Below, in pieces: positions 36,201-39,200 of a stretch of 64,000 nt of DNA. Numbering within the stretch: position 1 is the stretch's first letter; each line of letters opens with the position of its first letter. This DNA is from Cristatella mucedo (Eukaryota; Bryozoa; Phylactolaemata; Cristatellidae). The stretch covers positions 1,791,001-1,855,000 of the forward strand of contig WPIO01000021.1 in assembly GCA_009760855.2 (NCBI GenBank), written 5' to 3'. A program made the translations under genes and the position numbers. The notes below the pieces were generated by a model. The model was not told where the DNA came from. It did no database searches and saw only the letters and a list, made by a program, of their open reading frames with translations.

Positions 36201-39200
36201 TGGCCGCCGACTCGGTGGGGTCGTCGGGCAAGGCTGCTGGCGACGCCGTCGCCGGCGACCACGATGCTTCGGTCGCTTGCTGCGACGACGGCTGCTGATC
36301 GGCGGCAGCGGCGACCGGCTCCTCTGACGAGCTGTCACAGCCATCGTCCTCGATCGCGATTGTTACGTCGGGCGTCGGGCAGAGCGAGTCGCCATCACTG
36401 ATGCTCGTCGCCGGATTGACGACTCCGCCGTCCGCTGGCGCCAGCGCCTGCTGCTGCGGCTCTTGCGACGACGTCAGCGGAAGCAGCTGCAGCTGCTGCT
36501 GCCTCATGCCACTGGTGAACGACCGCGTGCTGGCGTTTCGCGGCAGCAAGCGGTTGGCCAGCAGCGACCGGAAGCTCTCGCGAGCAGCCGGCATCGCGCC
36601 TGCTGCTCCGGACGAGGCGCCACCGGAGCTGACGAGATGCTGCTCGTACATTTGGCTGCCCACGCTGCGGACCTGCCGGAGCGAGTGCGGCGGCTGCTGC
36701 TGTGCGGTTGCCGGCAGCACTCGGTGCGTCGACAGCGGCGTGGTGGCAGCGGCAGGAGATCCGCGCCCCGACGCAGAGGACGAAGTGCTGCCGCGGCCCA
36801 GCGAGCCGCGCAGCAGGCGATCGAGCAGCGATGCAGACGTAGTGCGCCTCCTCAGCTGCTGCTGCTGTAGCTGCTGCTGCTGGGCAGCGGCCATTGCTGC
36901 AGCGAGCTCTTCGCCACGCAGCAGCTGATTGTCGCGCGTTATGACGACACCGTTCAGGGAGCCGGTGGAGAGTGTGCGCTGGCGGCGCTTCTCGTCGATC
37001 AGACGCTGCATGATGAGGCACGTGCGCGGCCCCATGCGCTTGTCCACCTCCATCTTTCGCAGGATGACCTTGCGCCGCCGGCGAAGGTCGTCGTCGAGCG
37101 GCCGGAACAGCGAGCCGGCTACGACGCCGTTCAGCGCCAGGCCCGAGACGAGGACGAGCGCGCCGCGCCAGTCGTACTCCTCGAGCAGCCAGGCGGCGAG
37201 CGGCGCGAGCACGAGCGTGCCGAAGCCCGAGCCGCACACGGCCGCCGCCGTGGCCAGCGCTCGGCGCCGCTCGAAGTAGAGGCCGATGCAGAGGATCGAC
37301 GGCAGGTACATCATGCCGTAGCCGACGCCTGAAAGGCACGACGACAGCGACAATGAGGAGCAGAGACAGGCAGCTTTCTTTGCTGTTGAGCTCGCAGCTC
37401 CACCATCAGCTCGGCGGGGGGGGGGGGGGGGGGGGGGGGGGGGGGGGGGGCCGGCAGGCGAGCTAGAGGAATCGAAGAGTAAAGCGTTGCTGGTCCTGGC
37501 CTCAGGTCAAGGTCAGCCTCAGGCCGGCCCCCCTCCCTTGCCCATAAGCTGCAAATGTACTGACAGACGGGTGGGGGTGGAAGGGTAGGGAGGTGGCAGT
37601 ACCAGGAAAGGGCCCAGACCCGTTCGAAAGATCCAACGAGTGCATCGACAGCCATCTTCGGCTGTTGCGCTCTGTCCCAAATCCTTCAATTGGCCGTATG
37701 GGGCTGGAGCAGCGAGCTCGGCCATCGTCGGCTTAAATCTGGGCCAATCCTTAGCTGCATCACGCCGGGTGCACAGCTCAGTCGCATTTAGGTACGCCCC
37801 TGAGCACCCATGCGCACAAGCGTGCAGGCATGGCGTGTGTGTGTTTGCGTGCGTGTGCTTGTGTGTGTGTGTGTGTGTGTGTGTGTGTGTGTGTGTGTGT
37901 GTGTGTGTGTGTGTGTGTGTGTGTGTGTGTGTGTGTGTGTGTGTGTGTGTGTGTGTGTGTGTGTGTGTGTGTGTGTGTGTGTGGTGTGTGTGTGTGTGTG
38001 GGTGGGTGTCTGTGTGTGTGGGGGGAGTGTTTGTGTGTGTGCGTGTGTAATATAATAACAGGTCGTTTTTGCATATCGCCAAAAGGGAACCTAATCTCTA
38101 TCTAGGTGCTTTATTAGCTACTACAAGAGAATTAATAACCAGGGTTCGTGTAATGCATGGTATAAAGCACTCAAAAGCAAGCATCATGCAAGGGTCAGCA
38201 TGCTAAAGCAAGCATAAAGGCAACACAAAACCACTCAACTCCTTGTCTTCTCCCAGGTTAGCTCCTAACCTAGTGATCCTTGTGATGATCTAGCTCATCA
38301 GTTCTCAACCTGTGGGTCGCGACCCATTTGGGCATCGAATGACCATTTCACAGGGGTCACCTAAGACCATCGGTATATATGCATTTCCATGTTTTGCACA
38401 GAATAATTGTATGGTTGGGGGTCGCCACAACATGAGGAGCCGTATTAAAAGGTCGCTGCATTAGGAAGGTTGAGAACCATTGATCTAGCTAATCATTTCT
38501 CTACCTTCCTTTCAACAAGATAGACAAGCTCAGGGGGTCCATGCACAGGGTGTCAGCACCCCTCCCCCTGGAATCATGTCCCTCAATTCCTTGCAGCAAC
38601 TATCTCAGTGGGAGACTCCAGAGTATTGATGTAAACAGATCAAGATCATCCAAGGAACCAACAACACATCGGGTACCTTAGGGTTCATGGCTTGGTACCG
38701 TTCTTTTAGCGGTTTATACTCTCCCTCTTACCGATGTGATTGCCAGGCACAATCTAGGCTTTCACTTCGATGCAGATGACACTCAGTTAAACTTTTGCTT
38801 CGATCCCTCTCAGCCCACCAGCACATCGAATTCTCCCAACTCCGTTGCTGCATGAATTGGTGACATCCACACATGGAGGGCAGCAAACGTTCTTAAACTG
38901 AACGATGATAAAATAAACTTTACTAGTTACTGGCAAACCAAATGTGATTCATAAGTTGAAAACCTCTAGCTCAAAATCGGCTATGCTAGCATATCTCCTA
39001 TTGAATCTAAACGAAATATATGTGCCTGTTCAAAAGTGACATTTCAATAGACGACCACATTAGCTCCACAGGCAAGCCTGACTACTTTCAGCTACGTAAC
39101 ATTGGTCAAGTTCGGGCTTGCTTAGACAGTGATACCACCTTTAAATTAGCCCATGCATTTGTGACATCCCGTCGTGACTTCTGTAACTCACTGCTTGCTG

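Follow-up and report, generated by a model that had tools for sequence, protein, structure and literature searches.

The window analysed here, a 64-kb stretch of assembled DNA (C133:1791001-1855000), contains a 187-bp element that is bounded by inverted ends and an 8-bp duplication and splits an older LINE. The following features were delimited at this locus and at the paralogous LINE copy:

38288..38295, plus strand: target-site duplication, left octamer ATCTAGCT, with a central TA
38296..38482, plus strand: non-autonomous hAT (Buster-group) MITE of 187 bp, probably SPIN-type, placed by family counts, alignment and ends
38296..38311, plus strand: left terminal inverted repeat CATCAGTTCTCAACCT; CAGCGGTTCTCAACCT in the consensus of 30 copies
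38314..38325, plus strand: subterminal perfect palindrome GGGTCGCGACCC
38413..38432, plus strand: conserved block of the right half, GGTTGGGGGTCGCCACAACA, from the sequence and the 30-copy alignment
38467..38482, minus strand: right terminal inverted repeat, which reads AGGTTGAGAACCATTG on the plus strand
38483..38490, plus strand: target-site duplication, right octamer ATCTAGCT
38251..38601, plus strand: older LINE split by the element, with a paralogue at 23683-23530 on the minus strand
23639..23646, minus strand: empty target site ATCTAGCC in the LINE paralogue, located by flank alignment

Re-reading of the sequence bears out the structure described in the initial annotation, namely an element of 187 bp with both SPIN-type ends, the named internal blocks and a perfect duplication, the two ATCTAGCT octamers on either side of it being identical at 8/8 positions. 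The inverted ends of the window copy (CATCAGTTCTCAACCT / CAATGGTTCTCAACCT) are imperfect, the 16-bp terminal inverted repeat pairing at 13/16 positions there and at 15/16 in the 30-copy consensus. These ends lie within the 5-27 bp given for hAT terminal inverted repeats in the available text of PMC3517528. The element is short and non-coding, occurs in many copies of uniform length and has intact ends, as is characteristic of MITEs, and at 187 bp it has no room to encode a transposase. No second copy was detected by blastn within the 64-kb window.

The history of the insertion can be read from the LINE. Once the element and one of its octamers are taken out, the two flanks match the paralogue at 23683-23530 straight across the junction, agreeing at 118/157 positions (75%; 4 gap positions), and the paralogue has a single octamer, ATCTAGCC. 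This junction-spanning alignment and the single octamer show directly that the element was inserted, that its target was duplicated and that the LINE is the older of the two, in agreement with the earlier proposal that the element sits in an older LINE whose empty site is preserved near 23640. Similarity between the LINE copies carries on downstream (38600-38800 against 22965-22765), and the paralogous copy codes for reverse transcriptase (RVT_1, E 2.3e-24). A 50-nt repeat, TAAAGCGCCCTCAGAGAACTTAATCTCTTTCTAGGCGCTTTACATTTGCT, was found at 11 places in the window at a level of at least 60%, including 21817-21866 and 62930-62979, and is possibly a LINE tail. Exon-like frames are also present on the minus strand between 33641 and 47782, and resemble those of a monocarboxylate transporter (SLC16); only one of the four minus-strand frames scanned, 35710-37506, gave a Pfam match (MFS_1, E 3.7e-12). 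The element is situated between two SLC16-like frames, perhaps in an intron. An Rfam scan of the window produced no match.

Copies were counted, and their divergence measured, throughout the assembly to which the window belongs (572,011,866 bases in 688 contigs), as the initial annotation had suggested. A 26-mer from the left end, allowed at most one mismatch, matched the genome 509 times (265 forward, 244 reverse), and exact anchors for both ends, in a pattern that permits a span of 159-184 bp only, matched 235 times (110 + 125), against 0 matches for the backward control of each pattern, so that the family cannot be attributed to chance. These pattern matches provide the firm counts, while the first-look candidates of the similarity searches are loose and do not count as confirmed copies. 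The search with the window copy produced 2,088 such candidates, and scoring 40 of them located 41 places at 81-100% identity; the search with the 30-copy consensus produced 2,336, and the 40 scored gave 41 places at 85-96%. Among the best 40 left ends, 21 have a full-size match among the matches listed and 19 have none there, and it is possible that longer elements occur among these 19. Two close pairs of SPIN-type elements in opposite orientation, less than 300 bp apart, were observed at G000:C676:2828045-2828503 and G000:C44:5033934-5034301, an arrangement that may reflect target preference or nested insertion.

The consensus was derived from 30 of the 41 places, those best matching the window copy, and the copies fetched are 185-191 bp long as delimited from the alignment. 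They diverge from their own consensus by 3.2-11.2% (mean 6.2%) and differ pairwise by 11.2% on average (range 6.5-18.3%), figures that understate the divergence of the family as a whole since the copies were picked by their likeness to the window copy and the consensus is biased accordingly. No other copy among the 30 is as far from the consensus as the one in the window (11.2%). The undecayed duplication to which the initial annotation drew attention is therefore no mark of youth: the window copy is not young, its perfect duplication notwithstanding. Among the 41 places scored with the consensus, the highest identity was 96%, and as none exceeded this value the family is taken to be silent or almost silent.

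Target-site duplications are widespread in the family. Octamers at the expected ends of the 30 copies agree at 8/8 positions in six copies, at 7/8 in 11, at 6/8 in four and at fewer in nine, such that 21 of 30 copies have octamers alike at 6/8 or better, compared with ~0.5% of random pairs; the nine copies with poorer agreement count against our best explanation. A central TA is present in both octamers of 18 of these 21 copies, and in at least one octamer of 27 of the 30. According to the available text of PMC3517528, Buster-group hAT transposons are distinguished by an nnnTAnnn target, a rule that the duplication of the window copy, ATCTAGCT, also follows. The identification of the element as a hAT MITE is upheld by its 8-bp duplications, its inverted ends and its many short copies.

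SPIN (SPACE INVADERS) is the transposon best known for moving between very different animals, and its terminal sequence is CAGYGGTTCTCAACCT. Both consensus ends, CAGCGGTTCTCAACCT and CAGTGGTTCTCAACCT, agree with this sequence. Further comparison was provided by primers printed in the available portions of three papers. Ate1 primer 1 (mouse, PMC2767504) matches consensus positions 1-19 at 18/20, with one base outside the element; Ate1 primer 2 (mouse, PMC2767504) matches positions 56-75 at 18/20; a Kcnq1ot1 primer (PMC6221546; species inferred to be mouse) matches positions 60-79 at 19/20; and an Agps primer (mouse, PMC4151185) matches the right end at 21/24, again with one base outside the element. 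The window copy agrees with the same primers, in this order, at 16/20, 19/20, 17/20 and 20/24. The two Ate1 primers point in the same direction and belong to one arm of the locus, and only primer 1 was found by sequence, primer 2 being its unselected companion. Overall, the mouse primers match the ends and interior of the consensus at 88-95%, an identity inflated by selection in three of the four, which were found via exact 11-14-mers of the element. The interior block (consensus ~56-79), covered by the primers matching at 18/20 and 19/20, extends the likeness past the 16-bp ends, and the SPIN-type resemblance put forward by the initial annotation stands in this respect. Taken together, the four primers show that the mouse carries elements resembling this one internally as well as at its two ends, and we take the primer pieces to be murine SPIN copies.

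A mouse donor piece in PMC11247941 matches at 17/19 but covers the element end only, and was left out of the primer tally; a match in PMC11991921, which proved to be a Nestin-enhancer bisulfite primer, was set aside as unrelated. Searches of published text with 14-17-mers of the element found none, the mouse primers having been reached with shorter strings. Viral contigs scanned for a conserved 26-mer and prokaryote contigs scanned for a 22-mer returned no match, as did blastn of the consensus against phage and plasmid collections.

The nature of the host was assessed from the mitochondrial contig of the assembly (C688). Its COX1 frame is open under codes 5 and 9 (517 aa), open under code 14 in a longer frame, and closed under vertebrate code 2, a code usage that indicates an invertebrate; under code 5 its conserved methionine and lysine positions are, as we judge them, where expected. 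The contig also carries a large-subunit rRNA (Rfam) and, by eye, consecutive ND1, ND6, CYTB, ND4L, ND4 and ND5 frames on one strand with tRNA-Thr opposite, a gene order of the molluscan or lophophorate kind. A stretch of nuclear contig C166 matches C688 at 96-97% over 2.3 and 1.5 kb, and at higher identity over shorter repeats, and this mitochondrial insertion shows that the mitochondrion belongs with the nuclear genome. The host is thus an invertebrate, in keeping with the non-vertebrate appearance remarked on earlier, and probably a lophotrochozoan. Molluscan haemocyanin (PF14830) was sought without a match here, and equally without one in the control genomes, so this result has no bearing on the identity of the host. 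The mitochondrial contig (21,008 bp; L067, L068) further contains a stretch in two copies ~2.1 kb apart (near 10,990-12,856 and 13,105-14,971), to which a piece lying inverted near 2,431-4,007 is related; this arrangement could be real or an effect of assembly.

A potential source of transposase was sought with an approximate TcBuster protein query. Of 890 candidates 69 matches were scored, 28-34% identical (best E 5.9e-72), and 65 of these contain stops. None of the 16 Buster-type loci fetched from the 69 has a SPIN end within three mismatches, and around the 100 exact left ends listed of the 509 there is no Buster match of the 69 closer than 49,933 bp, so that none falls inside a 5-kb limit. 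The full-length SPIN transposase for which the initial annotation advised a search was consequently not encountered among the 16 loci fetched; a SPIN-ended transposase may have been lost, may have decayed or may be among the matches left unscored or unfetched. Fourteen of the 16 loci (L069-L075, L078-L084) make up a single family of 2.7 kb, the members of which are 93-96% alike and whose ends, CAGGGGTGTCCAAC, were displayed for six of the 14 and are flanked by identical TA-centred octamers in five of the six. The other two, L076 and L077, constitute a second Buster-type family of ~3 kb (91.5% alike). The left end of L076, CAGCGGTCGGCAACGTGCGGCTCGCGAGCC, resembles the consensus left end at 23/30 positions (E 0.82), and with that end aside the 16 loci match the consensus over no more than 12-13 bases, as expected by chance. 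Both families were rejected as the master because their ends differ. A search with PF05699 gave 138 matches, 63 of them at E<=1.1e-16 and many with open frames of ~640 aa. The 30 such loci fetched (L031-L060) are ~99% identical to L036 over up to 2.2 kb and represent a hAT family apparently in very recent or current expansion; this abundant family was likewise rejected as SPIN master, as the consensus matches nothing in the 30 loci. Among 46 matches to DUF4371, many contain stops and some have open frames, and two of these places are the same sites as fetched Buster loci.

We propose, with a probability of roughly 0.87 and from sequence comparison, that the element is an internally deleted MITE of a SPIN-type Buster hAT, probably acquired horizontally, an assignment made from the ends and the mouse primer pieces. 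Vertebrate contamination or an assembly artefact, a concern raised by the initial annotation and judged here from the assembly, is scarcely credible as an explanation, given that several hundred copies are spread across many contigs, including the 24.8-Mb C111, that most fetched copies have their own local duplication, and that the LINE interrupted by the window copy has paralogues in the same window. Hundreds of similar copies identify the element as a true resident of a genome in which no sign of vertebrate contamination was seen, and the concern can be considered largely answered. A resident origin would also be provided by a hAT MITE of some other family, having only a hAT end motif in common with SPIN and no link to vertebrate SPIN. 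CAGNGGT-type end motifs are common across hAT groups, and this genome does contain similarly built Buster-type families, both the CAGGGGTGTCCAAC-ended 2.7-kb family and that of L076 with its 23/30 left end. However, the mouse pieces match the interior at ~56-79 and not the ends alone, and the fetched Buster loci, the L076 left end excepted, match the consensus at chance level, so that we regard this origin as unlikely.

Somewhat less probable still is vertical descent from an animal ancestor without any horizontal transfer. Old families can survive patchily, and one host genome was examined here, but the copies lie 3-11% from a consensus that is itself ~90% like the mouse pieces, and freely evolving non-coding DNA would be expected to have become unrecognisable by now. 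A non-coding likeness of ~90% is implausible if it dates from the protostome-deuterostome split, which argues for horizontal transfer, and acquisition of the founding element by this route is the most likely reading of the mouse likeness. For such a horizontally acquired SPIN-type MITE, a founding element would have arrived in the invertebrate and, we infer, been mobilised by SPIN transposase, supplied in trans by a full-length SPIN-type relative. Binding by the transposase would be directed to the 16-bp inverted ends as well as to G+C-rich subterminal blocks, the palindrome GGGTCGCGACCC among them; cut-and-paste insertion at TA-centred 8-bp targets, followed by gap repair, would generate the duplication. 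The family grew to at least several hundred copies in this genome and has since become silent or almost silent.

In its CAGYGGTTCTCAACCT-type ends, 8-bp duplications and short non-autonomous copies the element resembles SPIN and SPIN_NA of tetrapods and Rhodnius prolixus, and it has in common with SPIN_NA the subterminal blocks that are also present in the mouse primer pieces. Unlike known SPIN, it occupies another invertebrate host, probably a lophotrochozoan, and our searches of this genome found no autonomous copy. SPIN is also present in Lymnaea. Its occurrence in Rhodnius prolixus is stated in the available text of PMC11614815, and the available sections of PMC5440852 describe a ~1,000-copy hAT of Biomphalaria glabrata with significant identity to SPIN, in a genome in which no intact DNA-transposon transposases were detected. 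Compared by description, the Biomphalaria element is similar to that reported here in its lophotrochozoan host, its copy number of the same order and the lack of a detected intact transposase. Mar of Drosophila, as described in the available text of PMC3517528, is another Buster-group MITE with nnnTAnnn duplications, but differs in its ends (CAG(G/A)GGTAGGC, 11 bp), its length (610 bp) and its sequence.

The initial annotation had anticipated that a copy in this genome would widen or test the known picture of SPIN. A further invertebrate host has indeed been added, whereas the novelty was overstated, Biomphalaria and Rhodnius having been reported already in the sources cited above; since snail and insect hosts were on record, the finding does not by itself change that picture. 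A bolder view, which we advance tentatively and would not favour, is that SPIN invaded a non-molluscan lophotrochozoan phylum, multiplied there past 500 copies and subsequently lost the master element, extending its reach past tetrapods, bugs and snails; no report of SPIN in such a phylum was found in the open-licence literature searched. SPIN serves as a test case for the movement of DNA between animals, and each invertebrate host with a good insertion record narrows the routes and times of transfer. With several hundred copies in an assembly whose contigs reach 24.8 Mb, other families of this genome can serve as a yardstick for dating the burst. The value of the finding therefore lies in a further host with a good dating record rather than in a new mechanism.
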